This document shows positions 20,599 through 46,900 of a stretch of DNA of 64,000 nt, piece by piece; position 1 is the first letter of the stretch; each line of letters starts with the position of its first letter. The stretch comes from Isoetes taiwanensis. Its lineage: Eukaryota; Streptophyta; Lycopodiopsida; Isoetales; Isoetaceae. The stretch is from assembly GCA_021234155.1 (NCBI GenBank), contig JAJEKV010000080.1, forward strand, positions 2,899,867-2,963,866. Direction: 5' to 3'. A program made the translations under genes and the position numbers. The notes beneath the pieces are model-generated. The model did not search any database. It was not told the origin of the DNA and saw nothing but the letters and a program-made list of their open reading frames with translations.

Positions 20599-22082
20599 CT
20601 CATGCCCTCCACGACAGTATCCCGCATCCACATCCTAGGCCAATTGACTACGAGTGTGATGGAAGTGAGCTACTTTGGCGCTTCTTGGAGGTCGGGTGGT
20701 CTTCCTGCCACGGAACTTGGTCCCCGGGCAATGTCGACGTTTCGAGTCCATTGGCGAGCCAAATCGCGATTCCGAGAGAGGGAGGTCGCTCGTCCGGCCC
20801 CTGTGGCCTTGGGGAGAGGAAATCCCGGGCAAGCAGCTTCGGGATTTTAGGGTCCGTGCTCAAGGCCAACACCCCCACTCCACGCCAAGTCACGCGCAAA
20901 GGTCCCACCCGAATCTGACAAGGAGAGGGCCTCCAAAATGTAAACCCTGTGGGTTGCCAGGTTCTAGAAGGGTTTGCGTTTTGGGGGCCGAGACTTGGTC
21001 TGTTGCACTTGGGACCTGGCCGAGAAGCCGGCAAAGAAATACGGAGCAAAGGGGAACTGACGGAGCGGAGTTTGGGCCTGTCCTCCCGATGTGGCAAGTA
21101 GAAGTCGGGGTGCTTTTGCAATGCCAAGACATTCATAAATTCGCAATTAATGCATTGTACGAAAATAAATTCTGATTTTTTTGCGGCAAGATTCCTAATC
21201 CATCTCCAAAGACATAGCCCAATTTTGAAATTTTCGGAGAAGGTCTAGGTCAAAGGGTTAGCATTAGAACGGTCGGGGAGCCCGCTGGCAGGCAACCGAG
21301 AGTGGCACCCTTCCCCAAGTCAAACGAGGTCAGGACCTTGCAGGGGATCCCTCACAAGAGGGGAGAGTCCCAGGACCCAAGAGGCGGGGATCCAAAAAAA
21401 GTTCGAGGCAGCCCTTCCCCGGCCAAAGCCCTCCCGGTGACGCTAATGACCACCCTCCCGGGCCTGGTTCCCCTATCCCACCGTTGGATCCTTCGTTCGA
21501 GGGGCCCCTTCGAAGGCCCAAAAAGATTCCAGATCGGTCCGGAGAACTTGTCAAACCGCGTGGCGCCCCGAGGTCGGCCTTGTAGAAACCGGGCAGATGT
21601 CTTGTCGCCGGGCACCGGGGAGGCTCCGGAATGGCAAATCGACCCTCGCCAAATCGTCCTAATGGCGAAATTACCCTAGGGAGCAAGTTACAAGGTCGGT
21701 TTTGCAAAAGAAAGAAACACTCATGCCCTCCACGACAAGATCCCGCATCCACATCCTAGGCCAATTGACTACGAGTGTGATGGAAGTGAGCTACTTTACG
21801 CTTCTTGGAGGTCGGGTGGTCTTCGCCACGGAACTTGGTCCCTGTGGCAATGTCGATGTTTTGAGTCCATTGGCGAGCCAAATCACAATTCCTCAGAGAG
21901 GGGAGATCGCCCGTCCCCGGCCCCTGTGGCCTTGGGGAGAGGAAATCTCGGGCAAGCGCTTCGGGATTTTAGGGTCCGAAGCTCATACAACACCCCCCAC
22001 TCCACGCCAAGTCATAGCGGGCCGCAGCCGAGAATACGGAGCAAGGGGAACCGACGGAGGCCGGAGTTTGGGCTCGACGACA

Positions 22083-22140
22083 TTTTAACGTCGATGATCG
22101 ACGGATATACCCACAAACTGGTCAATATCGACGCTGGCCA
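22083..22140. repeat. Second internal subterminal-type palindrome
   Basis: AACGTCGATGATCGACGG followed by the same spacer, AATATCGACG half and A run as at 10950-11005. It marks the start of the second copy of the large duplication. Confidence 0.75.
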
Positions 22141-23372
22141 AAAAAAAAAGTTAATTGTACCTACAAAGGTTCAATTGAAGCAAAACCCCGACATCCAAAA
22201 CCCTAGCCGCTTCAAATATTCTTAGTTGAGGCAACAAGAGCTTGGCCGCTTCACATCTAGTTCTAGCAAGCATCCCAGCGCCTTTGGAGCGCGATCTAAG
22301 GTTACATTTTGTATTTCCTTTCTCTGCAATCACTCCTTGTTCATTATCGTTCTTCGCCCTTATTTGTAGCTCTTTCTAATGTGAGGATGCAGATGCCTCG
22401 CCCTACTATATGAATAACGCCATTGGAAAGACGTTTGAGTATGGTTGATCGTGTGCCGCCAGCCGGGCTGCGAAATCCTCCGGGAACTATCAGCAGCGCG
22501 AAGATGAAGCATTAGAGGAAATAGAAGACCAGCTAGAGCTGTTGAAGAAGAAGAGAGATGAATACAATAGCTTGCCCGATAATACCGCACCGGTATTTGG
22601 AGAGAAGTTGGCAAATTATGTCGCGGAGCTGAATTTCATTGAAGGCATTATTGGATGTGTTGACGACATTGAGTGTGAGGTCGTTCCTCTTCCACCTTTG
22701 AGGCAACCTCACGATCTCGATATTTTTAGCGTGATATTTGTACTCTAATCATAGTATTTGAGCGACATTGGATAAGTATTTGAGAATATTTGAGTATTTT
22801 GTTCAAGTTTTGGATCTTTATAGTCAGTTATCTTTTGTTCTAGCATTTCTTATACTTATATTCTCATATTCAATCTAAGGATGTTATTGTTAGATAGGCT
22901 CTGGTCTTGGATTGAAGTGGAATAGCAAAGATCTCCTCTTGCATATGATTTTGCACTCATCTACATAGCATTGCAAAATCAAGATCCTATGCTCAAATTG
23001 AATGTGCAATCTCACGGACATATCGACGAATTGGTTGCGTTCGATGGGGTCCGTCTCTTGGGGTAGGGTTAGGAGCTCGAATTTAACTCATGGCTTAGAT
23101 AATGCTGAGATAGTTGATGACAATCAAAACCAAAGAGTAGAGAAAGAAAAGGATGGAGCGATTCTTGCCTAGATGATGACCAAAAGCCAAGTATGTCAAG
23201 TATTGAAGATGGAGATAAGGGTGGAACGCCAAAATATTATTCTCGCTGCATGGCTTAGATAAAGACAACATAAATGGTGTATATCCTAGTTCCTTTCTTT
23301 GAGAAATTGACCGTGACATGGTCACTAAGCAGTCGCATTGCACGGGGACGCCACGAGAATTAGAATGTCCGG
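22087..23372. repeat. 1.3-kb segment, copy 2 of the large duplication
   Basis: Copy of 10950-12240. The two share long exact blocks (for example the GCATTAGAGGAAATAGAA region and the AATCTCACG region) with scattered 1-12 base indels. It replaces the rest of the satellite unit that was truncated at about 22080 and runs into a new unit at 23373. Confidence 0.85.
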
Positions 23373-25470
23373 GATTTTAGGGTCCGTGCTCTGCGGCGTC
23401 CAACACCCCCACTCCACGCTAAGTCACGCGCTAAGGTCCCGCCTCGAATCGACAAGGAGAGGGCCTCCAAAACGTAAACCCCGGTGGGGTTGCCGTGTTC
23501 TAGAAGGGTTTGGCGCTTTGGGGGGCGAGACTTGGTTTGTTGCACTTGGGACTCCGCGCAGAAGCCGCAATGTGAATACGGAGCAAGGGGAACTGACGGA
23601 GCGTAGTTTGGGCCTGTCCTCCTCCATGTGGCAAGTAGAAGTCGGGGGCTTTTAAAGTGGCAAGACATTCATAAATTTGCAATTAATGCATTGTGCGAAA
23701 ATAAATTCTGATTTTTGCCAGCGGATTCCTAATCCATCTCCGGCCTACAAACCAATTTTCGAAATTTTTAGAAGGTCTAGGTCAAAGGGTTAGCATTAGA
23801 GCGGTCGGGGCAGCCTGCTGCGGGGGCAGCGGCACCCTTCCCCAAGTCAAGCGAGGCCCAGGACCTTGCGGGGATCCCTCACAAGAGGGAGAGTCCGGAC
23901 CCCAAGAGGCGGGATCAAAAAAGTTCCCGAGGTAGCCCTTCTGGCGGCTCCCCCGGGCCGCACGCTAATGACCACCCTCGGGCCGGTTCCCCTATCCGGC
24001 CAGTTGGATCCTCTGTTCAGGGGGCCCCTATTCGGGAAGGCCCAAAAGATTCCAGATCGGTCCGGAGAACTTGTCAAACCATGGCGCCCCGAGGTCCGCC
24101 TTGTAGAAACCGCAGTGTCTTGTCGTTCGAGGCACCGGGAGGCTCGGAATGGCAAATCGACCACGCCAAATCGTCCTGAATGGCCGAAATTACCCTAGGG
24201 AGCAAGTTACAAGGTCGGTTTTGCAAAAGAAAGAAAAACACTCATGCCCTCCACGACAAGGTATCCCGCATCCACATCCTAGGCCAATTGACTACGAGTG
24301 TGATGGAAGTGAGCTACTTTGGCGCTTTTAGAGGTCGGTGGTCTTCTGGCCACGGAACTTGGTCCCCGTGGCAATGTCGACGTTTCCGAGTCCATTGGCC
24401 CGAGCCAAATCTCGATTCCGAGAGGGGAGGTCGCCCGTCCCGGCCCCTGGGGCCTTGGGAAGAGGAAATTTGGGGCAAGCAGCCCGGGGATTTTAGGGTC
24501 CGGTGCTCGGCGTCAACACCCCTACTCCACGCCAAGTCACGCGGCGCAAAGGTCCTTCCCGACCGACAAGGAGAGGGCCTCCAAAACGTAAACCCCGTGG
24601 GTTGCCCGTGTTCTAGAAGGGTTTTGCGTTTTGGGGGCGAGACTTGGTCTGTTGCAATTTGGGACCTGGCCAGAAGCTGCAGCCGGAAATGCGGAGCAAG
24701 GGGCCCTGGCGGAGTGGAGTTTGGGCCTGTCCTCCTCCCGATGTGGCAAGTAGAAGTCGGGGGTGCTTTTGCAAAGGCAAGACATTCATAAATTCGCAAT
24801 TAATGCATTGTACGAAAATAAATTCTGATTTTTTGCCAGTGGATTCCTAATCCATCTCCAAAGACACAGCCCAATTTTTCAAATTTTCTGAGAAGGTCTA
24901 GGTCAAAGGGTTAGCATTAGAATCGGTCGGGGCAGCCCGCTGGAGCAACCGAAATGGCACCCTTCCCCAAGTCAAACGAGGCCAGGACCTTGCGGGGATC
25001 CCTCACAAGAGGGGAGAGTCCTGACCCCAAGAGGGGATCAAAAAGTTCCCAGGCAGCCCTTCCCGGCAACGCCCCGGGGTTGCGCTAATGACCACCCTCC
25101 CGGAGCCCGGTTCCCCTATCCGACCGTTGGATCCTCCGTTCAGGGGGCCCTCTTCGGGAAGGCCCAAAAGATTCCAGATCGGGTCCGAGAACTTGTCAAA
25201 CCAGCTGGGCGCCCGAGGGCCTTCCTTTGTAGAAAACCGCGTAGTGTCTTGTCGTTCGCACCGGGAGGCTCGGAATGGCAAATCGACCACTGCCAAATCA
25301 TCCGAATGGCGAAATTACCCTAGGGAGCAAGTTACAAGGTCGGTTTTGCAAAAGAAAGAAACACTCATGCCCTCCACGACAGTATCCCGCATCCACATCC
25401 TACTGCCAATTGACTACGAGTGTGATGGAAGTGAGCTACTTTGGCGCTTCTTGGAGGTCGGGTGGTCTTC
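23373..25470. repeat. Two more ~1.1-kb satellite-like units
   Basis: Units start at 23373 and 24489. The second breaks off near 25470, just after the CTTCTTGGAGGTCGGG landmark. Same landmarks and same indel-rich differences as the larger array. Confidence 0.88.
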
Positions 25471-25889
25471 GACCATTCACCGTATTTATCAACGTGATCG
25501 ATGATAGTCTTTCTCATCCGTTTTATTTGTCCTTTGCACATCGCGCAATTGCAATAAAGCCGCTCTGTCAAGTACAAACCGAAAAAAGTTTATTAGGATA
25601 CAAAGTTGGCAATCATTGAAAACATGTTTCTAGTACATACGTCAAGGCATTCATTTCATCGTGCATGCCACTAAGGCTATGGGGAAGACTCGGACCACCG
25701 GGTCTAAGTGGACTATTTGTGGCAATTGTTGGAGTAACATCTTTCTTGCCGATCGCCATTTAACAATCTTAAGGCTTTTGTTGCATTTTACGTTCATGGT
25801 CGGCCTCACGCTTGTCCATGTTGTTTACTACAAGCAAAAAATGTTAATAAAACTAATTTAATGTATTAATGTGACTTTAGATCTATTTG

Positions 25890-27128: not shown

Positions 27129-28134
27129 TTATGATTCCTTCGGAGGGATGATTTCATGATTAAAAATGAAAGCATTCCTTCCTTTCCAGATCCTCCAAAG
27201 GAGGATGTAAATTCTCCAGTCAGTTGGGTTATTGGGCATAAAGAAATCCCTCTGGCTCAGGACTACCAGGTTCTGACCAAGGATGTCTGAGGCTAATTCC
27301 AATATCCATTCTGACCACAGGCATAGTCTATAGAGATGATCCTCGATCTTCTTTATCGGTAAGACACCTGTCACATATATCCGAATTAGCCATAGATAAT
27401 CGATACCTCTTACAATTGGTTGCCAGGCCCTTGTGCCAGAGCTGTCACATGAAGGCCTTGATTTTTGGATTGATCGGGCTGCTCCACATGAAGTCTAGAT
27501 TTTTTATGGCCGTACCCGGGGAGACTCCCCATTTTAGGTGAATGGTGATCTCTGTTTGACTCATCAAGAATCTATAGGCTAGCCTGACCTTGTATCCTGT
27601 TTTATCATTGTAATTCCATGAGTCTGAGGGGTGAGACCATCTACCCTGCACAACAGTGTTAATAATAGCATCATAAAGCAATTTAGTTTGATGATCTTCC
27701 TCGGCAAGGATGGAATTCTGGAATGGGATAATGCCATTATCATCAAAGAGATCACTGATCAGATTAATCCCCTTTTGCTTCCATAATTTGGCCTGCTCTT
27801 GGAAATGGCAAGCAAGGCATATGCTGGGATTATCAAGAATTAAGGCTGTGTTCCAGAAGATGGATTGCTCCACAGAAAGTCCTTTTTCCCAGGTATACAT
27901 CTGCCTAACCTCAAGCCACGCTTTGATCCATTTCTTGATTAAGCCCGGAATAGTAGCAGGAACTGGGAAGTAAATAGAGTAGGGCAGTTCCATCTTGAGG
28001 ATCCTCCATCCATACGGGTGACACTTGTTGATGTAGTGCCTAATCAAGATCGAGATTGGATGCTTTATTTTGTCATAGCAAGCTCTGTAAAAGTATTTCG
28101 CAGCTAATGCCAAGCCCTGTTTTCTGATATTCAT
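27129..28134 (-). pseudogene. LINE ORF2 C-terminal region
   Basis: 27445-28134 is open for 229 codons, beginning in a stretch typical of plant L1 ORF2 after the RT (GLALAAKYFYRACYD...) and ending at a zf-RVT like region (KWGVSPGTAIKNLDFMWSS, then INPKIKAFM just before a frame change). 27129-27374 continues with CLWSEWILELASD and ILWRIWKGRN, the end of the zf-RVT domain. At least one frameshift separates them and another separates the block from the RT. The product is not functional as it stands. Confidence 0.8.
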
Positions 28135-28442
28135 GGTGCCTAGACCACCTTCCTTTTTGGGCTTGCAGCATTTCTCCGTGGAAACAGGGTGCCAGCACCT
28201 TCTGTTTTGACCACAAGAGATAAACCTGCCAATAATGCTTTGAAGCTTGTTAGTAACTTTTTTGGGAGCTAAAATGACCGAAGATTGATAAACCTACGAA
28301 GAGGAGATCACAAAGTTGGCAACTATGGCCCTTTCATTTTTAGAAAGATACCTGGAGTTCAGGGAATCAACCTTTTTGTAGAATTTCTCAATAATGTCAT
28401 TCCATAAATCGGAGGCATTACTTCTAATGGCAAAAGGGATTC

Positions 28443-29477
28443 CTACAATTTTAGATTTAGTACATGGGGTGTAATACTTACAGCCAAAGAGGCCAGCTGC
28501 TTGTGTACCTTTGTCAATCTCCCTAGATTGAATGGCAGACTTAAAAGGATTAATTCTGCACCCCGAGGCTTGACAAAGTCCTGAAGGATATACTGAGTGT
28601 TGATGATGGAGTTGTGATCCATTGAGGTCAGAATAAAAGTGTCGTCAGCGAAGTGTCCATTTAGAATTTGGTCCACACAAAGGTTATCCGAAGTCAAGTC
28701 CCTTAATGAATTATTGTTCTTGGCAGCTTCCAGTCTGCTATGCAAAGCCTCCATAACAATTAAAAAGAGAAAGGGTGCAAGAGGACAACCTTGTTTGACC
28801 CCTCTTTGAATTGAGAAGAAGGGGCTGCACTCACCATTAATGAGGACTGCAGTTCTAGAATTACCAAGAATAGCTTTGAACATACCGATGCTTTCTTCGT
28901 TGAAGCCCAATGCCCTGCAACTCTTGAAGAGAAAATTCCAACTAACCGTGTCGAAGGCTTTTGTGATGTCCAATTTGAGAATGGCTATATCTTGCTTGGA
29001 TTCTTTAGCCCAGTGGATTCCTAAAATTGCAGTAACCACATTATCAAGGATAAACCTGTCTTTGAGATACGCTGATTGAGTGCTGCTAATAGCAGAGTCC
29101 AAAACTTTCTTGAGTCTGGCAGCAAGAGCACCTGCAATTATCTTATAGATGACATTAGTAAGCGAGATAGGTCTATAATCAGCAAAGGAGATGGGAGAAT
29201 CAATTTTCGGGATAAGGGTGATAAGGCTCGTATTGATTCTGGCATCCAAGCGCTTACAGATCCTGAATTCGTTGGCAAGCTTGGTAACACCTTCACTTAA
29301 GATTGGCCATGCCTTTTTGAAGAATTTAGCAGGCAGGCCGTCTGGTCCCGGGGTCTTTCCATTATCCATGCCTGAGATTACATCCTTAAGCTCATCCTCG
29401 GTAAAGGGGGAAGAAATCATGTCATTCTGATGTTGACGAATTTGAGAGCCAACATCTTTTGTACATGGACATTGCAA
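28443..29477 (-). pseudogene. LINE reverse transcriptase domain
   Basis: A 344-codon open stretch. In order it shows GKTPGPDGLPAKFF (RT start), LITLIPK and DYRPISLTNVIYKI, LKLDITKAFDTVSW (first catalytic Asp), FSIQRGVKQGCPLAPFLF, and GHFADDTFILTS (FADD catalytic box, near 28645). These are the standard RT motifs of L1-clade LINEs. The catalytic residues are present, but the frame shifts after the thumb-side segment (about 28560), so the stretch is a piece of a larger broken ORF2. No endonuclease precedes it. Confidence 0.9.
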
Positions 29478-29878
29478 TGTGCCAGAAATATTGTTTGGGA
29501 TTGGAGGTTACTGTGGCAAATGCATTATATGTTGATCTATGCACTCCAAGTGAATGAAAATTGTGTGTCTCTACAAAAAGTTTGACGACGGACTTTGAGC
29601 ACTAGCATGTAGAATGCGTTCCAACTTCGCACAAGGTTTCAAACTAATAAGTGAGTGAGTGAAGAGAAATGTTCGCGGCGGCCTTGGCCGCAGCGATAAA
29701 TTTCTTGTAGTATTATAGGGTAGCATGTTTGCCAGCTTGCCTAATTTAGGGTACACGATTTCGTGCAATTCTAGGTTGTCCACATGGACATCCACATCAC
29801 CAAATTCTATGGCTTCCCAATCTCATTCAGTAGACCCCTTGTTCACAAGTTTAGTTGTTTAGTGATGCAAAATGGGAA

Positions 29879-32561: not shown

Positions 32562-33989
32562 TTTTGGGTGCCCAATGTTCTAAAACAATATATTCCGAAA
32601 TTGTTCTCTTGAATGTATGCGCACAAGACGCACCAAAAAGCTGATGTTAATCATGTTAATCCAATATTAAAACAATACCTTTTACGTTTCTATTTCATCC
32701 AAGGAGCTAGGTGATTGCGTAGTTAACTAGAGAATCAATAGATATTAGCCCTAAAGTAGCCATGACATGGTGCCATGACATGATACCATGACATGCAAAG
32801 AATGATTATGAGGGAACCCTGGTGCTAAGATGGGCATAAGGCCTTCTACATTTAGCAAACAAAATGAGCACATGACAATGATTTACTTTACATGAAGAAT
32901 TGTCAGTAACAAATGAAGATAAGAAAAACCTTCTAGGAAGCTCTAACACATCCAATGAACCTCTTCATGTCTGTATGATAAGGAATGATATGGTAGTTAA
33001 ATCAATGAATTAAATGCGCGTTGGCATCAGTTTTCTAATAAGTGTGAACAAGGGTATAAAATGTAACTTTTGTGTGTTAAATATAGCCCTTGATGGACTC
33101 CCAAAGTAGAATTAAATGAAGGCAAGTGCCCGAACATAAAAGTGATGGTCTCCTTTTTCATTTGAACTTTGTTGTGCTCCTCTTTCTTTTTGCAATATAT
33201 GTTTGCACTTGTCTAGAAATAGATACAACTTCAAAAGTTTGCTGCAAAAGAGCAAAGTTTGAGCATTGAACCGTAGGTCTCATCTTATTAGGTCATTTTA
33301 GTTAGTTTGAAACATTTGTGCATGTGGCATATGGATCAAAATGCACCCTAGGGATTTAGAGTGGCAATCCAATTCACCAATTTAGATAAGACTAGAGTAT
33401 ACAACCCCATAGTGTTGACTCCATTGCTTCTAGAAACAATATGTTATCTGTTGAAACATCCCCCACCATTAAAAAGACACCATTTGTTTTTTTGGGTCCA
33501 AGAATAAAAATTTTGCCAGACAACAAAGTTGAAAATGAAACTCACTTATTTGCTGCAAACGCACTTCAAAAGGAATCTTTGAAAGATTCCCTAAAATTCC
33601 CTTAAAAAGTCCATTTTTAAGATTTTTTTGTGACGGGTGTGACAATTTAAGTAATTTAGGTACCATTTTTGAGGGGTTGATTGAACATAACTTTCATGCA
33701 AAATTTTTAAATAGCAATTTTCATCCTTCTAAACTAGAACAAAAAATAATTACTTTTATAAAGTGTAGCAAAAAAGGGGCAATAAAAAAAATAGCAAGGG
33801 TAGTAGAGTGACAAAGAAGTGATATATTCATGGTTGTGAAAATTGTACAAAATTATGAACAAAATTGTCAAAAATATAGGACATTTTGACAAACACTCAT
33901 CACACACTTTACGTTCTTTATGTTCGAGTCATCGGACAAACTTACATTTTGCAAACAAGATCGGGATGCATCTCATCCTCCGACTCATT

Positions 33990-36160
33990 TAATCCCTGAT
34001 CACTTGAGCCTTCATCCTCAGCTTCACTCTCAAAGGCCCGGATGTACTCGAACGATCTTCTTCCTCACTATCTACAAGTGAGTCTTCATCATCATCTTTT
34101 TTTGCCATCTTTCTAGGTTGTTTGTCTAATCCACATGTCGACCTTATTAAAGTTTGAGTGACCATCACGTAACTTATTAGCGGCGGTCGAACAAAGTCAT
34201 ATGCAAGAACCTTTACTTGACTAGATCTATGGCAGCCGGTGCTTGCTTTGGACTTAGCTCTCTTTCCCACTCTGTTTTACCATCTCCAAAGTATAACTCC
34301 CACCGAAAAGCATTGGCGATTCGTTCTCATTCGGTGCACTTTTAATTGAGTGGGAATTCCATCCTCTCTTGTTACCTCCGTACTTTAGCTAGCCAGAATG
34401 GCTTCCCAGTTCATCATTATCGGTTTGGGGCAGCTATGAGCATTCCTTTCTGAATCTCACGAGACTGAACCGCCGCACACTTTCGAGCAACTTGTTGTCT
34501 TTGTGCGTCACGGGGCGGTGTACATGACTCATCATCTTCATCCGAAGCTAGCCAATATCTCTACATGTTCCTCTTGATTCTCAACTTGCACGAGGGAGAG
34601 TTTGCCTAGATGGCCAGTTGAATATAACCGGTCTTCGACCTTGTAATGAAGCTTGCAAAATGTCACGTTGTTAGAAAAAAAAAGGCCACCATAAAGCATC
34701 TGCCTCCCCAAAGTGGTTAGAGCACGATGAATACTTGTCTCAATAAAATCCAATGATTTGTTTGAGTCAAATGCTCTTCCCTCTTTTTTTACTCTTTGTG
34801 ATTTCTTTCAAGCTTTTAGAGGCATTTGCTCTGCGCAGAGAGCATGGAACTAGTATTGGGGATGGTGCGAATGAATTGAATACTTTGCTGGCTGCCACTG
34901 CAAGGATGTGGCATATTTCTTTCCTTGTGAAATGGCCTTGCCATCTACAAGTGAAATTTTGATCTGATGCTGAAATGTAATGTTTCTCAAGAGCTCAATA
35001 GCACAATGACCCAGTTGATCTCTCCGAAAAATCCATTCCTTGAAATCATAAGTTTCTTCTAATAACTCGATGTCTGGACGAGGATTGTAGGAATCTTGGA
35101 TTACCTCAATCATTCTTTGGTAGGTCGAGAGCTTTTTTGAGCAAGACGTTTAGAGAACCTCTTGAACATCCCACGTCAATTTGATCGTGACAAGCGGGGA
35201 AACCAATCTTCACCTTCTTGAAGATTTGTTTCTCAACTAGCATAACCTGATGTTTAACAAGGCCTGATTCTTATTATCTCTTGTCGTGTTGTCTAGCTGA
35301 AGATATAGAACCGGTGGTATATGTTCTAGATTGGAAAGAAGCTTAGTCAAGATTGTGATAGTGAGATTTGGATCAGCATGAATGTTTGGATAGTTCAAAA
35401 ATGCCTTGCAAGATAGTTTTCCATTAAATACCATAGCACCAACAACATGCAGGTGTATGAAATCTTCTTCAGCAGCATCCTTAGGCACATTGACAAAATG
35501 TGGTAGGGTGGTCTTCTTCTGGTCCATTCCATCAATAACAACCGATATGTAGTTGAGTGGTTGCTCCAGTGCTTTCTTCCTATGTTTTGTCAATTTTCTC
35601 CTTTCTAAAGATTGTTGTTCTCTGTGCTTGTTCAGTTTCTCTTTCAATGCATCTGAAATGAAAACATGTTTAGGAAAGAACCTACTTTTAAGTAGAACTA
35701 GGCAAGAACACGTCCTGGAAGCTTACTTTTAGTGTGAAGTGTCCTTGCATTTTGTCTCTGAGCTTTTAATTCAGAGCATGTAGCACAAACAGACATCCGG
35801 TGCTTCTAGGAATGGACACGCCGGTGAAAAACTCTTTTTTCCAGAGCACAGTGAAGTAAGAGTAGCAAACATGGCGTTCTCCAGCCTCAACACACATGTC
35901 CTTATAATTATCGTAGACTTCACGTTTAGCGGAAGTTGTCACTCAAGTGGTACATGGGGCTGTTAGGGAGTTTCGCGAAGACTCCTTAAAGAAACCTTCC
36001 ATCCAGGAAACACATTGAAGGGCATGAATTCGGATATACCTCCCGAATGGCGAGAGTCATTAATGCCCGGATTCTTGTCAAGCCTTTTCTTCAGGTCAAG
36101 TCGTCTGTTGCCTAAAGCATGAAACAATTTGAAGGCCGTTTGATTTATGTGTGTGGCCAC
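33990..36160 (-). pseudogene. DUF7869-type transposase-like gene, decayed
   Basis: Read on the minus strand from 36160. About 35790-35940 carries KREVYDNYKDMCVEAGERHVCYSYF in pieces and then a CATC zinc-type motif after a frameshift. After a good acceptor (TTTCAG) at about 35655 comes the clearest exon, 35237-35650, with VVIDGMDQKKTTLPHF and VLYLQLDNTTRDNKNQ, two of the family's conserved acidic blocks. The expected third block (GHTHDDID) is damaged near 35180: only HDQID and then MFKRFSKRL in shifted frames remain. 34850-35113 holds a probable C-terminal stretch (LLRNITFQHQIKISLVDGKA). 33989-34270 is acidic. Several indels disable it. It faces away from the methyltransferase gene. Confidence 0.65.
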
Positions 36161-37075
36161 CAGCCGTAAAGTAAACCTTTCACCATAATCGGCCTAATAT
36201 TGAAGGCTAAGTAGCCCCTTTGGTCTAGCGAGTCATTGAATCAGAACTATCACGAATCAACCTCAATTCCTTTAGTCCAATCTTAAGCAAACAACGTCGA
36301 GAACAACGATTAGCTTTGTATGTGTTGCCCTCAAGTGAGCCTCGGCCATGAGTTTCTTTCTTCTAACGGTTGTACATGCTTTCTTGTGTAAGTTACGGCT
36401 TTAAGATTCTTACTTGCGGGGGCTTTGAATTCAACATGGAGTCTTGTGGCTTTGGTAGGTCCTCGTCCCGAGATCAACATGAGGTGTTTCTTCGCCACGA
36501 GAGATCAACATGAGGTGTACTTAGACGCCCGAGGTTTGGTGTGGGCAAGTCCCGGGGGGAGGTGCTTTCCTGTCTCCGGGAAAAAGTAATCGAGGTTGGT
36601 GGCGTAGTTGACCAGCTCTGGCGTGTCGTAGAACACGGGGAGTTGTGTCTCACCGACTGCCCCCACTTGTTGTAGTACCATTTAGCGAAATGGATGGAGT
36701 TGGCGTGATTAAGCCTCCAGGGATTTAGCCTCACGATGGACTATAGGGGCGATGCTAAAATGAAGTGGGGTAGGTAGTCCGACCTCTCTAGCCTTGTGGT
36801 GGAGTAAAACGCGCGTGGGTGGGGCAAACGGCGTTTAGGAGCTGGGTGTGGTGGAGTAAATTGAACTGGTGGGTGGAAGCCCAGGTGGTCGTCTTTGGAG
36901 AAAACTCAACAGAGCTGGGGGTTTGAATATCGGAGGCGAAATTTTCGAGGCTACTTCCAGTGTCGAGTTGAGGAGGTGTGAATGTCATTGCAGGAGGAAG
37001 CCCTCGCGAACGAGGATTGGAGGCTCTGCAATTCTTTTTCTCGAGCGATACCGAGAAAGTTAGCGTCCATTACTC
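36161..37075. other. Region between the transposase remnant and the methyltransferase gene
   Basis: A minus-strand frame at about 36474-36734 and its neighbours could hold a 5' exon of the transposase gene (a frame reading QLPVFYDTPELVNYATNLDYF is open near 36560-36650), but I cannot place it in the family. No + strand gene. It probably includes the promoter of the minus-strand gene. Confidence 0.35.
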
Positions 37076-37247
37076 GTATAAATTTATAATGACGTAAGAG
37101 CGTGACGGTAAAAGTTTACCGCGGGGATGGTATAAATTTATACTGAGAAGGCAAACTTGAAGCGGAATTGTATAAATTTATACGAGAGATGGTATAAATT
37201 TATACCGGAGGAGGGCAACATAGAAAAGAAAACGTATAAATTTATCA
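37076..37247. repeat. First cluster of GTATAAATTTATAC palindromes (5 copies)
   Basis: Core copies start at 37076, 37130, 37170, 37192 and 37234. The first and last are imperfect on one side. A shorter relative, GTAAAAGTTTAC, lies at 37108. They sit upstream of the TATA-like sequence near 37400. Confidence 0.9.
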
Positions 37248-37399
37248 CGAAAACTCACGTAGACAGTTGTATTGAAAACTTTATGGAGAAGCGCTATCTG
37301 AAAGCGACACTTAGCGAGAGGTACTTAAGCCCGCGTGCGGCCACTTTATTTTTTCTATATCTGGCGGCTACTGTTGTCGAAGGCGCTCGCGGTCTGGCT

Positions 37400-37462
37400 T
37401 ATATACCCCTTATTTGCTCTCTAGAACGTCTATCTGGCGAGTCCATCTTGCCATGGCCCGCG
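37400..37462 (+). promoter_or_regulatory. Possible core promoter and first splice donor
   Basis: TATATA at 37400-37405 is followed 48 bp later by GCCATGGCC (ATG at 37453) in a good context, and then by CGC|GTAAGT, a consensus splice donor at 37462. A first exon could end here and splice to the acceptor TTTTTCCAG at 38118-38126. In the ATG frame that junction meets a stop at once. In the frame one base off (WP + GC) it joins cleanly to the downstream frame. So the donor and acceptor look real, but the start codon is unresolved. Confidence 0.4.
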
Positions 37463-37533
37463 TAAGTCTCCCTAACCGCAATCTTGTTTTTAGTTTCTCT
37501 TTGTTTTAATGTGTTAGAGTGTAAAAAGCATCG

Positions 37534-37896
37534 GTATAAATTTATACGAAATGGTTCTCGAGGCGGTATAAATTTATACCGTTCAAGAATTCCGATCGGT
37601 ATAAATTTATACCCGCCCGACAGAAATTCTGGAGCGGTATAAATTTATACCGCTTTCGAGCAGGCAAGGTATAAATTTATATAGTTTCTGTATTATAAAT
37701 TTATCCGTTCTTGCGAACACGATCGGTATAAATTTATACACATAAGTGTTACGGGCGGTATAAATTTATACCGCTTCGTCTTCGAACGGTATAAAATTAT
37801 ACCGCTCCAGAACCATTTCGGTATAAATTTATACCGACTGTGTTCTGCAACGGTATAAATTTATACCGCTCGTGCTCGAGCGGTATAAATTTATAT
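37534..37896. repeat. Main array of 12 phased GTATAAATTTATAC palindromes
   Basis: Core copies start at 37534, 37566, 37599, 37637, 37669, 37693 (degenerate), 37726, 37758, 37789, 37821, 37853 and 37883. Spacings are 32, 33, 38, 32, 24, 33, 32, 31, 32, 32 and 30 bp. Most are extended to CGGTATAAATTTATACCG. The DNA between copies is different each time, so this is not a simple tandem repeat: the site and the spacing are conserved but the spacer is not. Thirty-two bp is about three turns of B-DNA, so all sites face the same side. Each core also holds a TATA-box word on both strands and a bend-prone AAATTT. The array probably lies in the first intron or the 5' region of the methyltransferase gene. 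Confidence 0.95.
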
Positions 37897-38058
37897 CGTT
37901 CCAGAACCATTTCGGAATCTTGGTGTCTAGTGCTTAGAGAATGGTCCCGAACCTTAATATTTTAGTAATATTGTTGTGTTTTAAGCTTAAATGACACAAA
38001 TATAGTGTTAATTTAGTGTGGATTTTATGCCCTTTCAGCCTCTTTTTTTACGGTTTTT

Positions 38059-41000
38059 TTGTTTCAAAAAGTCGAAAAAGGTTCTGTTTCTTGTATAAAA
38101 ATGGTTTTTTTTTACGCTTTTTCCAGCCCTAAGATCAAGTTTGTACACAGAGGCCAATCATCAAAGGCTACACCACCAGAGCCACAGACTTATGAACTAA
38201 AGGAACAGATTTGGTACGTCCACAGGGGCGCAAGAGTGAGCAAACCCACTGAGGCGTACCTTTACTTGTGCCATCAATCAGGGAAGGGCAAGTACAAGTC
38301 TGATGATTATTACCCTGCTGGCGAAATTATAAGCCTTGTTACTACAGAGAACGATGATGAAATTTTGATGAAGTGCAATCATGACAAGGGGGAGGTCTAC
38401 TATGTTCTGAATAGTGGAATGCTTAGAATAAGCATGTGCAAGCCCAAAGACGTGTATGATTACATTGCGGACAATTACAAGAACGGCTTTGTAAGTTATT
38501 CTTAGTTGCTTTCCGTATAAATTTATACCGTCATTCTCTTAACTTAACCCTGCATTACAGGACATAGTAGAAATTTTGATGTCAATAGTGCTGTGTGAAG
38601 AAAAAGTGTTGGTCAAGGGTCTATGGTACCCCCGTACTATTGAAGAGGAAGATAAGGACGAGGAAGTAGTAGAAGAAGAGGAAGAGGAGGAACCAGTCGT
38701 CACAAAGGGAAAGGGTAGGAAGCATTCCATGGTAGTAGACACACAGCCTCCTACCAAGAAAAAGTCTAGAACCACAAAGTCCTTGACTATAGAGGAGTCA
38801 GCAGAAGCTCTTCAGAAGGCTCCTGGAGCAGATATCGTTGTGAAGCCCGCAGATAAGTCAAGTGCTATTCTTAAGCGGGTTAATGAAACCAAACTGCTCA
38901 AGCAGACCATTTCGTTGACACTAAGCACTATTAAGAGGCCACCAAAAAATGAAGATGGGGTCAGAGTGCTTCAGGTCCGAAAGTTGTACGCGGCACATGT
39001 GGCTATCCTTAAGCAAAGAATGAGAAGGAATCCTCATGCCCATGTGTCGCCACTAGTTGTGATGGTAGACAGAAGTATTATGTTCTTGGAGGCAGACATA
39101 GTTATAAAGCAAGAAAAGAACTTTCAAAAGAAGAAAGCCGTAATGAAGTCTGGAGGAGCGTGGAAGCACATATCTATGTGGGGGTGACAGACGAAGAGGC
39201 AAAAGTCATTGCCGTGAGTCACAATCTCGACAATGACTTCAGACTAAAGATGAGCCTAATAGACAAGATTCGCTTCATGCACCGAGAGTACGTGGATTTC
39301 AAACAAGTGCATGGAGACGACTTCAAAAAACAAAAGAACAAGCTTCAAGAGCTTCGAGAAGCCTGTGTGACAGAGTGCTGCCTCAGTTATGATTCGGATA
39401 AGAAACCCATTATGGCTGTCAAACAATACGATAACTACTTTCAGCTCGCTTTCAGAGATGGTCAAGTAAGTAAAAGCTTCAACTCAATCTTTTGTAGTAT
39501 GTTTAGCGTGGTTAGAAGTGTGTAATAGCCTGGTGACGGTATAAATTTATACCGCGACCGGGAATATAATACCGCGACCGGGCTCGGTATAAATTTATAC
39601 CGCGACCGGGAACGGTATAAATTTATACCGCGACCGGGCAAGGTATAAATTTATACCATGCTTAGTCGCCGTGCCCATCCTCTTACGCCATTCAACACTA
39701 AACTTCGTTTGACCATTTACAGGTGTGGGATCTTCAAGAGAGAATTTTTTGTATGTTCGAAGATGGTGAGCTTAAAGAACAAGCTAGCAACGCAGGAAAG
39801 AAACCAAAGAAAGGTGGTGAATCAAAACAAAAAAATATGAGCACTGTACCCTGGACGCAGTTACAGGGTCTCAAAAGCAAAAAAATATTTGTTCGCCTGT
39901 TGGAAAAAGTAGTTGCCAAAGAATTCACATTAGACGAGATGGCCAAGGAAGCTAAGACGTAAGCTTCACTTGCTATGCCATGTTTTTTTCTACATTTTTT
40001 GTCTTACAATATTTTTCCCTTTGCAGTCAGAAAGACATTGTCACTTGCCAGGCCGAGTTAATGAAGCAGCTAAACCTAGAGGACTGGGAAGAGTGCAAGC
40101 TTTTGTACCCAAGTTGCACCACAGATAGTATCATCAGAGAGCACGCTGTTAACTTCAGTGGCTGGGTAAGTTTTGCAAAAAATATGTTATGTGTTTGTGC
40201 CTTTGTCTCATATTATTCTTACAGAACAAGAAGAAGGGGCTACCAACTGGATTTTTAAACCTCGTTCGTAGGGCCAAGGAGGAGAGGCATAGGCTTAAGG
40301 CAATTGAACAGGGTAAAGAGGTCGCCACTTGCAGGTTTAACACTACTTATGAGAGATTTACTACATTTGGTCAGGATGTCCAGTACAGGGTTGTTCAGGG
40401 TGATTGTACAAGGCTGGGGACTCTTTTAGACAAGCAAAATTTTACATTATGCATTGCAGATATTCCTTATGGATTCAAAATAAAGGATAGCGCTTTTGAC
40501 GAGGAGGCTTTCACTCACGTGCAAGTCCGGTCTTTCTTGGATGGCCTAAAAGAAGTCACGACATCTGAAAACTGGAGGGTCATCATTTTTCATTCCGACC
40601 TGCAGACGATGTCGGTGCTTAAACCTATGGGAGCGGTCTGTAACGCCGGCTTCGAAAACTGCGTTTGGTAAGCTTTACATTTAACGCTATGTTTTTACGG
40701 TAACTTCACGGTACAAATTTATACCACATCTGTCTTAAGGTTTAAAGTTTAAAGGCTGGAACAACCGTGGTATAAATTTATACAGCAAGGCAATGTCTGT
40801 ATAAATTTATACGGCTTGCCGCCGTGGTATAAATTTATACAGCAAGGCAACCGTGGTATAAGTTTATACCGCCACACTACTGGGGTAACTTATTTTCCTT
40901 GTTTTCTTTCTACTAATTTTTAATTGCTGTATTGCTTGGCAGGCTTAAAACAAACGTCAAGGGTCATGGTGGTGGTCCGCGCTTAGTGAGTTGTTTCGAG

Positions 41001-41630
41001 AATTTTCATATAGGTTTTTACAGCGCGGACACCAAAAAAACCATGATTCATTTCAACACGCAGAATGAGAAGACTCCTCCCTGCAATGCATTTCAGTTTC
41101 CAGCTGTTCTGCAGAAATTAAGAGACCCACAGCGACAAGGCGCTGTGGTGTCCCATTATCAGAAGCCACAGCGGCTTATTAATAATTTGATACAGTGGTT
41201 TTCTCGCCCTGGAGACTGGATCTTAGATGCCTTCTCTGGATCAGGCACCACAGCAGTTTGCGCCCTTAAGCAGGGGTGCAATGTCGTCTCCATCGACATA
41301 GACCCAGATAAAGTAAGTTTCATCAGGACTAGGATAAGCTCTTGTGAATCCTTTCCTGATGAAAACGAGGAACTGGGAGCAAAGAATGGTGCCAGCGATG
41401 TTAAGGGCACTTACACAGAAATACAGCCTCCACTTACCGGAAGAAAAGATGAGGAGGTGGAGTTTGTCGACTTGGAGCCTGTGGTGCCCGAGCCCGAGAA
41501 ACCGCCTGTGCCGGTAGGTTTGGAATCAGAAGGAGGCGTCTCTGCTGTTGTAAGCTCGCAAGAGCCAGATCCTAAGGGGTACGAGAGTCCTGTGGACTGG
41601 GAAGAGCCACCTCCCCCACCTTTCGTATAA
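38059..41630 (+). CDS. ParB-like domain / DNA N6-adenine or N4-cytosine methyltransferase
   Basis: Six exons: (38059 or 38127)-38490, 38561-39465, 39723-39958, 40027-40165, 40225-40667, 40943-41630. All introns are GT-AG. Exons 3-6 total 1506 nt with phases that fit. Predicted product is about 948 residues. Exon 1 encodes an unrecognised domain (QIWYVHRGARVSKP...). Exon 2 starts with an acidic run and a basic nuclear-localisation-like PPTKKKSR, then a ParB-type fold: LYAAHVAILKQRM, NPHAHVSPLVV, and DGRQKYYVLGGRHSYKA (39061-39111), whose GGRH corresponds to the ParB/sulfiredoxin signature. FTLDEMAKEAKTQKDI (exons 3-4) could be a helix-turn-helix. Exon 5 has motif IV as DIPYGF (40459-40476). 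Exon 6 has motif X (HYQKPQRLINNLI) and motif I, DAFSGSGTT (41226-41252), then VVSIDID. The order IV-X-I is that of bacterial beta-class N-methyltransferases (PF01555 type). The tail is acidic and Pro-rich. One base is missing in exon 2 (about 39000-39060), which breaks the frame. Start uncertain. Target base unknown. Confidence 0.85.
38515..38528. repeat. Palindrome copy in intron 1
   Basis: A complete GTATAAATTTATAC in the 70-bp intron 38491-38560, which is otherwise too short to hold anything else. Confidence 0.95.
39539..39656. repeat. Palindrome cluster in intron 2 (4 copies)
   Basis: Cores start at 39539, 39587, 39615 and 39643, with a degenerate one near 39565. Here the spacer is also repeated (CGCGACCGGG), so this cluster has grown as a 28-bp tandem unit. 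It differs from the upstream array, where spacers are unrelated. Confidence 0.95.
40711..40869. repeat. Palindrome cluster in intron 5 (5 copies)
   Basis: Cores start at 40711 (GTACAAATTTATAC), 40770, 40799, 40827 and 40856 (GTATAAGTTTATAC), mostly 28-29 bp apart. Spacers alternate AGCAAGGCAA and GGCTTGCCGC. The two short introns 3 and 4 have none. Confidence 0.95.
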
Positions 41631-41638
41631 ATTTATAC
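41625..41638. repeat. Palindrome copy that supplies the stop codon
   Basis: The last codons read TTC GTA TAA, and the TAA is bases 4-6 of a full GTATAAATTTATAC. It is the last copy in the window. Confidence 0.95.
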
Positions 41639-42111
41639 AGACAGAGTTCTTAACTACTTCCATTGTAAACTATGTGCTAAGTATTATTATAATTTATTTT
41701 GATGAAGATTTTTAAACTGAAAGCTTTGTCTCTTTAACAATGCTTAATTGAAAGAACTCTTTCTTGCTCCATGATTTCACACTCTTTGTCTTTCCAATGT
41801 TTGACTTTTTTAGTACTTCTATTAAGCTTGCAAAAAGACAATCTATATTTCCTTCTGTTTTTAACAATAAATACTTACTGAGTTATCAAAATTAATGTCT
41901 CCCTCCTCAAAACAAGCATTTTTTTTCCCTCTTTTAAAAATGAAAAGGCTTCAAAAATGTTGCTTTTTTTGGGGTATCCCGAATGCTAATTGCTCAACAA
42001 TCTATTTTGCTCCCTATTTTGTGTGTTTTTTTTAAGTTTTCAATTTTTATAAAGGAATCTTTCAAACGCACTTCTTAAATAAGTGCGTTTCATTTTAAAC
42101 CTTGTTAGACC

Positions 42112-43200
42112 AATTTTGTAATTGGCATGCATATTTGTTCTTGGCATAATATACTATTTCAATGGTATGCTTGGTTTGGAATATTGGTTGCATGTTCTCT
42201 AATGTATATTATTGTGGTGCGGCAACATCGTTAGACTAGGTATTGCCTTGGCTTTACTGCCTTTGAATTTCCTTATGGGTAGTGGGACATCAAGTTAATT
42301 TGTAAGGCAATATAATTGCCTTAGTTTTGCCATGCCAATATATTAATGGTTTAACTCCATTCAAAATAAAAGACGAGCACCTTGAATATCGTGGGATTCC
42401 ATTATCGATTATAAGCTGCAGATGTGTTGCGCATCTAGAGGCCTTAGAGCAAATCTTGAACTCCCTGATCTGCTTCAGGCAGATCCATCTAACCACCAAG
42501 ATAGTGCGACGTGGCTTTGGCATGGGAACAAGAGGTCATGTTTTGTTAAAGACAGAAGGCCAAAAGGCTGAACATGGATGCCTCTCCATAATGGACGGTG
42601 AGCCCTCACCCTGATGCTGCCTCGAACGATACTCGAACCCTCCCTCTCTCTTCTTCATTCCCAGCTTACTTTCTTCTTTTGCATTAAATCCCTTAACTAT
42701 TAAGACAAGGACCTTTAATAAAAAGAAATGATATAGGGGGCTTTCTTAAGTACATGCTAGGAGGGCTCATACCACCACCTTGACATTTAATAACAAACAA
42801 TATAACCTCCAGGATCGAAACCAATAATACAAGAAGTTTATCTTGGCAGCCAAGGTCGTTGCGAACATTCATTTGGTTCTAGACCTATGAGGTTAGACCC
42901 CCCCAGTAACATCTAACATTTGATACTGCGATTCAACACAAATAAAACTCATAGCTTGATGTTAAATTTTCATTACCGGTAACTTAGTCAATCTGTGGAA
43001 TATAATTTATTGTAGAAGAACTACTTGTTGTAGCATATATGCAAAATGTGTACAAGGAAACCTCTAAAAGTTGTCATGAGCAAAGCAAGGAGCATCCTTA
43101 CATGTTTTCATAGCAGGCTGCAGATTTAGGGCACCAACAGGTCGGTTAACGGATTTCATAGCAGACTCTCCCCATTGGGGGGAGAAGGAAAACTTTTGGA
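42112..43200. other. Intergenic region
   Basis: No supported gene. A frame at 42327-42614 of ordinary composition has no recognisable motif. The 5' edge of the second LINE probably lies near 43.0-43.2 kb. Confidence 0.45.
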
Positions 43201-43214: not shown

Positions 43215-43912
43215 AGAAACCCAGGATGATTTCGATTTGCTTCATAATCAGATGAAGAAGCTGATGCAGGAAATAACTGAGACAAAAAGCCTGGTGCTGG
43301 ATCTGGTGGAACAAAAGAAAACTCCAGGAGGCAAATCGTCAGTTGCAAGCACAAAACCAAACCCTAGAAATAGCAAGAGCATATGATGCCACAAAAATGA
43401 TTCGTCTCAAAGCTAAATTGGATCAGAATTCTAATGCTAAGCAACCCCAGGATTTTATTACTCAGATTGAATCTAAGGTTTCTGATCTTCTCCGACAAGA
43501 GTAGGACAGAGTTTTAAAGCTGGAAGATAGACAACAGAGAGCAGCTAATATCAAAATATCGGGCATTGAAGAAGTAGCAGGAGAAATTTTATCTGATACT
43601 GTCAATGATATTTTCAAGAATAAGATCTTTCTTCATGAACCTGGGATCCAATCCTGCTCCAGGGTTGGCAGGAAAATCGAGGGAAGACAGAGACTTGTTA
43701 TTGTTAAATTCCATAGTCTGGAATTGTGCAACCGTGCAATGCAACACAAAGGGAACCTCAAGGGACACAACATCTGGCTAAATGAGGATCTAACTCTCCA
43801 ACAGCAAAAAGATAGAAAAATGTTACTAAATGAAGTCAAGAAGCATAAGGCTGATGGAAAAAATGCATATATTCTTGGAAACAAAGTTATTATCAAAGAA
43901 AGCAGAGCATAG
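43215..43912 (+). pseudogene. LINE ORF1 (coiled-coil, nucleic-acid binding)
   Basis: A heptad-rich segment near 43225-43400 (LLHNQMKKLMQEITETKSLVL, then QLQAQNQTLE after a frameshift) is followed by ITQIESKVSDLL and, past a TAG at about 43502, by VLKLEDRQQRAANIKISG. The end reads RVGRKIEGRQRLVIVKF, then LKGHNIWLNEDLT. This order, coiled coil and then an RRM-like segment with NIKISGI, is that of L1/Tx1-type ORF1 proteins (the Transposase_22 group). At least one frameshift and one stop break it. It ends 1 codon before the ORF2 frame begins. Confidence 0.75.
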
Positions 43913-43913
43913 A

Positions 43914-46900
43914 AAGCCTGGACCCTCAGACTCTTGGTGTGGAACATCCATGGTGCAAGCGAATTCAAATTCTTGTCCAGTATGGATCTATTCAAGCAAC
44001 ACGATGTCTTGATCTTTCTTGAAACATGGGAATATGACATGAAACCACTAGTTGAGATCCGAGACTTCACAAAAATTGCTGCCCTGCACAATAAGAAAGG
44101 AGCATGTCATAGAGGTTGGGGAGGTTTGGCCTGCTATGTTCGCTCCTCCTACACATATGCAATGAAAATTGAACACACCTGCCCCTATAAACAATACTTG
44201 TGGCTGCGCATTAGCAGACAAAAGCCTCTTTATATTGCTTGCGTTTATTTTGCCCCATTAGATCTTGAACCTGCAAAAATGTATGATCAGCCAGATTTGG
44301 ACTCTCATGTCCCTTTCTTGCATCTTACCAGAGACATTCTTAACTACCAATCTAAGGGATCATTTTACGTGGCAGGAGATTTCAATGCAAGATTAGGAAC
44401 GAGGCATGCTCCTTTATTTCCTGATGATAGCAATGAAATCTGGTTGAAATTCAGAGCAACCTTGGAAGTGGACATCCAATGATCACATTAGCAATGCTAT
44501 GGGAAATCATGTATTGCAGCTATGTGGGGCATTAAAGTGGATTGTTTTCAATGGCATACAGACTTTTCCAGATTCACATAATTACATATGTTTTCAGCCA
44601 AATGGCAGCTCTGTTGTCGATCTCCTGTTAGGTAATCCCAATTGTACAATGCCCCGTGACTTTCATATACTTGAAAAGCAGCTAGTTTCGGACCATGAAC
44701 CTCTCAGTCTGGCTTTTAAAGCAGATAAGTCTCAAACTCCAAAACAGATTTTGAAGCCTCAATGCATCAAACTCAATTACAAAATTGCAGGCAAATATGC
44801 GGATACTTTAACCAGCAGGCTAGAGCAGATAAAGTGGCCAGCTGATGCATTTGATTATAACCAGGTTTTGGTTGGAAGCATATTGGCAGTAGCAATTGAA
44901 GTCTTTGGGAATACTAAGCATAGAGTAAACCGGCAGAACCAAAAATGGTTTGACAAGGAATGCATGCTTGCTAAGCAAGCATTAAGTATGGCTATTGACA
45001 ATAAGAAAGCCAGCAAAACTTATAAGGCGCTTTTGAGACACAAGAGAATAGAATGCGAGCGCATACATGAAGCAAAATTAACTAGCAGGATACTTGACGA
45101 ACCAAAGGCCTTTTGGAACATAACTAAAAGCCCTCTTCCATGTTTTGATTTTACAGCAGAAGAGATGATTTCCTGGCTCAAAGAGCTCTACATGATTCCT
45201 GCTCAGAAAACAATGTTCCAAAAGCTCCCCATAACTGAATCTATTTTTCTCCCTTGGATGTACAGGAAACACTGGCCCGCATGAAAAATGGCAAGTCTAT
45301 GATAATCTAGGTAAGGTGGCAAAATTATGTAAATGGGGAGGTGACTCACTCATATTTTCAACCTAGTGCTCATACATGGCAGCCTTCCTGATGCATGGTA
45401 TGTTAGCAGAGCTGTCCCAGTATATAAATGTAGCGACATACATGACTTACGCAATTACAGAACAATTCTAGTTGGAAATGTTATGGCTACAACTTTTGCT
45501 TCCTTGATTGAGCGAAAATTAGTGGATTGGGCTACAAATGCGGATGCTATAGCAGCATGCCAAGCTGGTTTCAGGGCTAGTTACTCAACTCTAGTCATTT
45601 AGTGACACTCAGAGTCTCATAGAAAATGCTAAGGGCCGAGGGAACCAATTATATCTTGCATTCATAGATCTTACGAAGGCATTGAGGCAAACTTCATGAC
45701 AGATTGGAGGCAATTGGGATCCCTCAAGCTCTCCAAGAGGCAGTTGCTTGCTTGTACCAAAAGGTATTGGTGGAATTCTCATTTCCCCTATGCTCTGATA
45801 CACAGATCCACAGTACTGTCGGGGTCAAATAGGGCTGCCCCTACTCGCCTGCTCTCTTTGGGTTGTTTATCGATGAAGTCGAAGCTTGGCTTAATGACAT
45901 AAGTGGAGTTGGTGCTGATTTATGTGACCATGTCATAAAGTTGCTACTCTCTGCAGACGATATCGTACTCATCTTCAAAACTCAATTAGGATTGCAATCA
46001 CACCTCCTCGATGATTTTTGCAAGCATAAAGGTATGTCTGTTAACCATTCCAAATCGAAAATCATGGTGATTGGTTCGCGCTCTCATGCTGATTTTTCAA
46101 TTGGAGGGGTTACTCTAGACGCGGTCAATCAGTATAAATACTTAGGGATTGAAATTTTCTCTAACTATAAATAGTCAGCTGCAGCATCAAAGAGAGCATT
46201 AGGAGGGCTAAGAGCTTTGTTTGGCATGCTCCAGGTATGTGAAAAAAATAACCTAGAAAGCTGGCACTTACATAAGTTGCTTTTTGGTGTTCTAGTTAAA
46301 CCTATCATGCTTTATGGATGCCCATCTTGGGCTTCTGGGCTGGCTGGATGGGTCAAGCTAGAGAAAATACAGAAGAGATTCCTCCTTGAAGAATTGGGAG
46401 CAAAAGCCCAAACACCGTACATTATGCTTTTAGCTGAAGCGGGACTAGTCCCTATTGAAATTGATGCTCTATGTCAGACACTGCATTACTTAGATAGAAC
46501 CTTGCATCTTGATTCTAAACGCCTTCCTGCCCAGGCGCTTAGGCACTCCCAATGAAAAATGAATGGATGGTATTCTGCAGTGATCAAATGGGCAAATACC
46601 TGGGATATACTGCGTCATAGTTGGCCTCATAAATGGGATGAGCTGCAAGCATTTGTATCAGCAAAAGCAGTTGCTAAGCTTTAGGGGGGACTGCGAGAAT
46701 AGTGTGAAGGCGACTTTCTAGAAGAGCGAAATTAATAGCCTTGATAACTGCTGTGAGCAGTCATATCTAGGAGCAGATCTAAGCTTGAATTTAAGAAAAA
46801 CCATCTCCAGAACACGACCCTCTTCCCATTACCTTGCTATAGAAAGTGGCAGATGGCAAGGATTAGCGCGAAATGATCGACTATGTCCTTGCTGCTTGGC

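Follow-up and report, generated by a model that had tools for sequence, protein, structure and literature searches.

In Arabidopsis, the VANC protein of VANDAL transposons is tied to a short motif that stands in tandem noncoding arrays of its own family; the motif varies among related families, its copies in intronic and upstream arrays are gained and lost, and its sequence, YAGTATTAY, lacks symmetry, all units of an array pointing the same way (PMC5735166 and PMC10398659, in the sections available). In bdelloid rotifers, the available sections of another report describe N4CMT, a bacterial-type N6_N4 methyltransferase encoded by a host gene with a chromodomain, as serving transposon silencing (PMC8885841). 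Some DIRS1-like retrotransposons, which have a tyrosine recombinase and a reverse transcriptase, carry a methyltransferase domain of unknown function, according to the available part of that study (PMC3266345). Here we analyse a stretch of 64,000 nucleotides from Isoetes taiwanensis (contig JAJEKV010000080.1, positions 2,899,867 to 2,963,866 of the forward strand; hereafter the window), which holds a DNA transposon with terminal inverted repeats (TIRs), a methyltransferase gene on this transposon, and arrays of a 14-bp palindrome in and around the gene. With a confidence slightly better than even, we take the palindromes to be recognition sites of the transposon-borne methyltransferase, which would mark or open the arrays of its own family against silencing.

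Results

Palindromic sites in the methyltransferase gene

With up to two mismatches allowed, GTATAAATTTATAC was found 28 times in the window (20 exact copies, six with one mismatch and two with two), always within 37076-41638 and never in the rest of the 64 kb. Dinucleotide shuffles of the window gave a mean of 0.36 matches, and 28 were reached in 0 of 100 shuffles. The initial annotation had reported the same number within the same limits, and both were recovered on re-counting; its extended form, CGGTATAAATTTATACCG, is true of eight sites (stretch 32901-42800). The sites are grouped as follows.

37076..37247: five palindromic sites upstream of the gene
37534..37896: main array of 12 sites, with steps of 24-38 bp, mostly 30-33
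38515..38528: one site in the intron following exon 2
39539..39656: four sites in the intron following exon 3, with steps of 48, 28 and 28
40711..40869: five sites in the intron following exon 6
41625..41638: one site across the stop codon

The spacing of these sites is mostly 28-33 bp, and the last palindrome supplies the stop codon of the methyltransferase gene. This gene lies on the plus strand and comprises six supported exons, a possible first exon and a C-terminal N6_N4_Mtase domain.

37283..37461, plus strand: possible exon 1, uncertain, its frame not being maintained in other copies; a GTAAG donor follows
38127..38490, plus strand: exon 2, a fast-evolving N-terminal domain, placed by splice sites and conservation
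38561..39465, plus strand: exon 3, a possibly ParB-like domain and a helical tail
39723..39958, plus strand: exon 4
40027..40165, plus strand: exon 5
40225..40667, plus strand: exon 6, methyltransferase, with the motif ADIPYG
40943..41630, plus strand: exon 7, methyltransferase, with the S-adenosylmethionine (SAM) motif DAFSGSGTT and the stop codon inside the palindrome (N6_N4_Mtase, PF01555, 5.1e-15)

When exon 1 is included, the clusters amount to five sites upstream, 12 in intron 1, one in intron 2, four in intron 3, five in intron 6 and one at the stop codon. These are the groups first described, with intron numbers shifted because the possible first exon has been placed ahead of the 12-site array. 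Noncoding positions in the gene model account for 27 of the 28 sites (P ~1e-11, or 2e-10 without exon 1). Exon 3 of the window copy has 905 nt, compared with 949-951 in the close copies L044-L046, and its frame is split into two pieces.

The gene is cargo of a TIR transposon

The methyltransferase gene is carried by a TIR DNA transposon that has a DUF7869 transposase-like gene on the opposite strand.

33518..33521: 4-bp target-site duplication AGAC, left
33522..42106: whole transposon, 8,585 bp, lineage A (see below); homology among copies begins at 33522 and mostly stops at 42106, with inverted ends at both
33522..33551, plus strand: left TIR, AACAAAGTT..., two mismatches to the search consensus
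35237..35722, minus strand: DUF7869 transposase-like gene, an open fragment in the window copy (PF25273, 1.4e-17)
42077..42106, minus strand: right TIR, AACAAGGTTTAAAATGAAACGCACTTATTT, no mismatches
42107..42110: 4-bp target-site duplication AGAC, right

The TIRs are about 30 bp long, and the ends of the window element read AACAAAGTTGAAAATGAAACTCAC... and AACAAGGTTTAAAATGAAACGCAC... as inverted repeats. Duplications of 4 bp were present in all five two-ended elements examined (AGAC in the window, TTAA in L044, TTTT in L045, AAAT in L003/L006, which are one element, and TTGA in L011). In copy L044 the DUF7869 match reaches 6.2e-54 across a 338-amino-acid frame. Pfam assigns the domain no function, and we regard the gene as a putative transposase. 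The palindromes of the window element lie 3.5-8.1 kb from its left end, in the methyltransferase half, and none lies in the transposase half.

The genome assembly scanned (1.658 Gb, 1110 contigs) holds 12,556 exact copies of GTATAAATTTATAC and 17 of a reversed-sequence control. The confinement to the methyltransferase gene that had been described thus holds inside the window and not genome-wide. With one mismatch allowed the count is 17,250 versus 973 for the control, and the control-subtracted counts correspond to about 2% divergence per site position. A search with the methyltransferase exon, in which 150 of 3,085 candidates were scored, gave many copies more than 95% identical. All eight site-bearing places read by position (L005-L007 and L009-L013, the first in the genome list) carry parts of the element, be it an end, a methyltransferase exon or the second gene of the element. 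The 14-mer is the signature of a large multicopy TIR transposon family.

In two short elements (2.2 and 3.4 kb) both TIRs are present and 7-8 sites form an array that lies no more than 0.56-1.0 kb from the left end, while at most a remnant of a methyltransferase exon is left. As to whether the 14-mer marks paralogues of the methyltransferase only, the eight places read do fall into one element family, but the two short elements lack the gene. A single-locus parS or a purely local autoregulatory operator, as proposed at first, is too narrow for a site that marks a multicopy family including such gene-less elements.

The site sequence follows the enzyme lineage

The enzyme lineage and its symmetric site move and change as a pair, and each of them is conserved. 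In lineage A, to which the window belongs, 33 distinct places (36 loci, three doubled) contain 3-20 exact GTATAAATTTATAC sites, and the counted stretch is free of B and C sites. The five places of lineage B contain 2-5 copies each of GTATGAATTCATAC, with a single A site in one of the five, and the three places of lineage C contain 2-12 copies each of GTATTCYRGAATAC and no other site type. Within the limits of each locus, the counted stretch starts 4.8 kb upstream of exon 7 and runs to the element's right end; this excludes four C sites of L043 (positions 533-723) that fall outside the element, whose end is at 741. Most A loci are 3.4-kb pieces and not whole elements, and the A set is biased toward close copies, since L014-L043 were the 30 loci that matched the window exon best.

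Exon 7 of lineage B is about 68% identical to that of A, and its site differs from the A site at two symmetric positions; 64 exact copies of it occur genome-wide (control 11). Lineage C is abundant (6,792 copies of its site, control 24), its exon 7 is about 57% identical to that of A, and A and B sites are missing from the copies read. The site is symmetric in all three lineages, save for the two central bases in C, with common GTAT/ATAC flanks, and every lineage has it both ahead of exon 2 and within introns. The arrays of L052, a C copy, run at 41-42-bp steps, about four DNA turns. The right end of lineage C, AACAAGGTTGCAAATTAAACGGGA, is related to that of A and coincides with the point where two C copies stop matching. 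Two of the five B places, L054 and L055, were selected solely for their B site; each contains degenerate methyltransferase remnants with stops, which are closer to B than to A or C (B versus A, 132 versus 89 and 191 versus 142 bits). Further methyltransferase and site lineages may exist beyond these three, because the protein searches scored 150 of 3,003-3,345 candidates.

C sites were also seen close beside lineage A elements, in L043 (533-723) and in L007/L008 (C4), which suggests nested or adjacent insertion of two families.

Conservation of the sites and of the enzyme

The exon 7 region was aligned in 37 rows, of which 34 are distinct (L044-L046 repeat L015, L016 and L018) and one is from lineage B; a near-complete exon 7 segment was required for inclusion. 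Majority fractions average 0.964 over the six sites of the last intron and stop codon, compared with 0.871 for the spacers of the same intron and 0.830 for 3' noncoding DNA. With A/T columns only, the values are 0.973 for sites versus 0.858 for spacers. Only 2 of 350 non-site 14-bp noncoding windows reached the lowest-scoring site, and the single site at the stop codon is conserved too. Six divergent A copies show 80-96% identity in the sites and 48-54% in other noncoding DNA; they carry 3 to 20 exact sites each, a count that is independent of alignment.

The ratio of nonsynonymous to synonymous substitution rates (dN/dS) was 0.07-0.19 in four of nine comparisons, codons with gaps or stops being skipped. 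These values point to an enzyme that is apparently under purifying selection. Exon 7 by itself is open in many copies.

Domains and motifs of the protein

Judged by domain match and motif order, the predicted product is a beta-class amino DNA methyltransferase. Besides PF01555, it matches the CcrM model at 1.9e-13, far below that model's cut-off, and the catalytic motif AD[IL]PYG in exon 6 precedes the SAM motif in exon 7, which is the beta order. Among 43 loci spanning motif IV, 40 have AD[IL]PYGF (37 ADIPYGF, and ADLPYGF in three C copies), while single loci have ADIPCGF, ADTPYGF or neither. Motif I, in 44 loci, reads DAFSG[ST]GTT in 39, is one residue off in two and is unread in three; both locus counts include four repeated places.

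In exon 3, the same stretch of A, B and C bears a weak likeness to phage ParB-like partition proteins. The ParB-like label given by the initial annotation is weakly supported by the profile PHROG_1033, which scores 4.4e-6 in B but 0.0025 in A and 0.019 in C, where the best match is a PHROG of unknown function; a Pfam scan of lineages A and B returned no ParB family. A profile search of Protein Data Bank (PDB) sequences likewise did not find ParB, and in Foldseek comparisons no PDB structure matched the exon 2 or exon 3 model, both poor, with an E value of 0.001 or lower. The order of strands and helices modelled for exon 3 seems compatible with a ParB-like fold, in a model too poor to count.

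Exon 2 evolves fastest, with identities of 28% between A and B and 21% between A and C, versus 68% and 57% for exon 7. As a determinant of site specificity it is weakened by L007, whose exon 2 is only ~63% identical and whose site is the same.

Two scans of viral contigs gave no relatives. Phage records contain distant beta-class methyltransferases, 22-27% identical among the 20 matches listed, of 194 records, and one of these matches sits under a feature annotated as a ParB-like partition nuclease; no convincing match to the ParB-like exon was found in the phage records.

Other features of the window

Outside the transposon, the window shows the following.

14000-25500: GC-rich stretch (0.51-0.57 in several kilobases) with repeated similar frames, probably another repeat family
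28443-29507, minus strand: reverse transcriptase fragment of an element of the non-long-terminal-repeat (non-LTR) type (RVT_1, 1.4e-28), with more minus-strand frames at 27129-28293
43505-46555, plus strand: frames of an apparent second non-LTR-type element past the right end of the transposon, one of them with an endonuclease-like match (Exo_endo_phos 0.0016, below cut-off)
60592-61041, minus strand: weak match to the Chlamydia PMP repeat (PF02415, 1.5e-4)

Discussion

The initial annotation had suggested that the palindrome is a cis target of the encoded protein. A specific symmetric site that changes with the enzyme lineage and is conserved amid diverged DNA argues for this; what did not stand is that it is the site of one gene. 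A dimer of the possibly ParB-like, beta-class amino-methyltransferase would bind, both in cis and in trans, the GTAT-N6-ATAC arrays that its own family bears in promoter and introns, and in lineage A also at the stop codon. A conserved part of the protein would read the shared GTAT/ATAC ends, and a variable part the six bases between them. The bound enzyme might then methylate adenine or cytosine at the arrays, or spread from them, and arrays so bound or modified would keep the genes of the family expressed and its copies mobile despite host silencing. Short elements with ends and an array could be served in trans. Two considerations lead us to prefer an anti-silencing role. A gene that is carried along and maintained by selection, in a large family whose copies are very similar, should be of benefit to that family; and the anatomy is a close match to that of VANC/VANDAL, with intron and upstream arrays, a family-specific motif, and gain and loss of copies.

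Several points weigh against this interpretation. First, in none of the 11 copies read at length (the window, L007, L044-L046 and L048-L053) is the gene unbroken, each having at least one broken or missing exon, and our confidence is slightly lower because of this. Secondly, three lineages represent only two site switches, and shared descent of enzyme and array could explain their match. Half-A/half-B hybrids of the site, GTATGAATTTATAC and GTATAAATTCATAC, number two in the upstream region of each of the B copies L050 and L051, and one in each of L007 and L049, both A copies; they could be half-site mixing or plain mutation. The exon 2 divergence of L007, with A sites retained, means that the N-terminal domain diverges without a change of site. 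Thirdly, the textbook form of motif IV is DPPY; with D[IL]PY in its place, catalysis by the predicted enzyme is not certain. The ParB assignment is weak as well, and the AlphaFold models are poor, with a predicted local distance difference test score (pLDDT) of 45 for exon 3 and 52 for exon 2. Finally, the aligner may favour sites in diverged DNA; dS is saturated in four of the nine comparisons and above 1 in three more; the dN/dS of 0.29 for L007 is unreliable because its dN conflicts with 92% protein identity; and the two short elements, which were picked via the site itself, show existence and not frequency.

A different protein may be the reader. If the arrays were binding sites of the transposase, as the subterminal repeats of Spm are for TnpA, the methyltransferase lineage would match them merely through travelling on the same element, and the two short elements, which retain TIRs and arrays near the left end, could be understood in this way. 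We regard this as unlikely, as the window sites occupy introns and the stop codon of the methyltransferase half, far from the left end and outside the transposase half, and in A, B and C alike they stand between methyltransferase exons.

That the protein binds the arrays only to control its own gene is a less likely explanation again. The sites are symmetric like those of operators, and 17 precede exon 2 of the same gene, five upstream and twelve in the main array. However, arrays are also present in the two elements without the gene, and sites are found in late introns and at the stop codon.

It is improbable, in our judgement, that the enzyme methylates its sites to silence or limit its own copies instead of resisting silencing. 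The bdelloid N4CMT, also of the N6_N4 type, marks transposons and is linked to their silencing in the available sections of PMC8885841, and 11 of 11 long copies here are broken; yet a gene that silences its carrier should be lost, and this one has a low dN/dS and belongs to a large family in which copies reach 98% identity. A neutral minisatellite, spread by tandem duplication and homogenisation in the absence of recognition by a protein, would account for the regular steps (mostly 28-33 bp in A, 41-42 bp in L052) and for site numbers that differ between elements, but is very improbable for a palindrome that is better conserved than its spacer, recurs in several separate introns with different spacers, and is conserved even as a lone site at the stop codon.

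Returning to the methyltransferase as the reader of the sites, we put forward a broader proposal only tentatively, and think it rather less likely than its opposite: the transposon would carry an epigenetic writer of bacterial type with a lineage-private palindromic code, GTAT-N6-ATAC, spread over its promoter and introns, and would evade silencing by a non-host mark on itself and its dependants, enzyme and code changing together. No transposon that combines a ParB-like methyltransferase with palindromic arrays matched to it was described among the matches listed in a search of the open-access literature, with subscription papers and preprints outside that search. Should binding be borne out, sequence-specific self-recognition by transposons would have arisen a second time, independently, and here through an enzyme whose possible mark, N6-methyladenine (6mA) or N4-methylcytosine (4mC), long-read sequencing can detect directly. 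Whether transposons of eukaryotes evade silencing by writing non-host marks on DNA becomes a testable question, for which the three lineages provide a natural swap experiment on how a DNA-recognition code changes.

Comparison with known systems

Like some DIRS1-like elements, as far as these are described in the available text, the Isoetes element is a eukaryotic mobile element carrying a methyltransferase domain; the former are retroelements, and the available part of their report mentions no site arrays (PMC3266345). The element differs from that group in that neither a tyrosine recombinase nor a reverse transcriptase was found among the element proteins scanned. N4CMT, in the account available, is likewise a bacterial-type N6_N4 methyltransferase in a eukaryote that is tied to transposons. 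It differs in that the Isoetes enzyme is transposon-carried, has lineage-specific palindromic arrays, and shows no chromodomain in the protein pieces scanned.

With ParB-methyltransferases of bacteria and phages and with ParB-parS, our element shares palindromic sites and the union of a weak ParB-like profile match and a beta-class methyltransferase in one gene, but it is a multicopy chromosomal transposon and not a replicon. Intron-associated arrays of up to 20 exact sites are unlike parS. In Spm/En, the element-encoded TnpA acts on repeated short subterminal sites and is linked to promoter demethylation. An element-encoded protein and repeated short sites are common to both, whereas the sites of the window element are internal and its protein has a methyltransferase domain.

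VANDALs belong to the Mutator-like elements, and VANC is not known to be a methyltransferase. For Mutator elements a 9-bp target duplication is expected, and Mutator-type membership is ruled out for our element by its 4-bp duplication and its DUF7869 gene. As far as the available descriptions of VANC/VANDAL allow comparison, the Isoetes element differs in being of DUF7869 type with 4-bp duplications, in its methyltransferase domain and in its palindromic sites, and it too has lineage-matched motif arrays of varying copy number in introns and upstream. By analogy, the element would resemble VANC/VANDAL in its working while standing outside that group, from which the length of its duplication and both of its genes set it apart.

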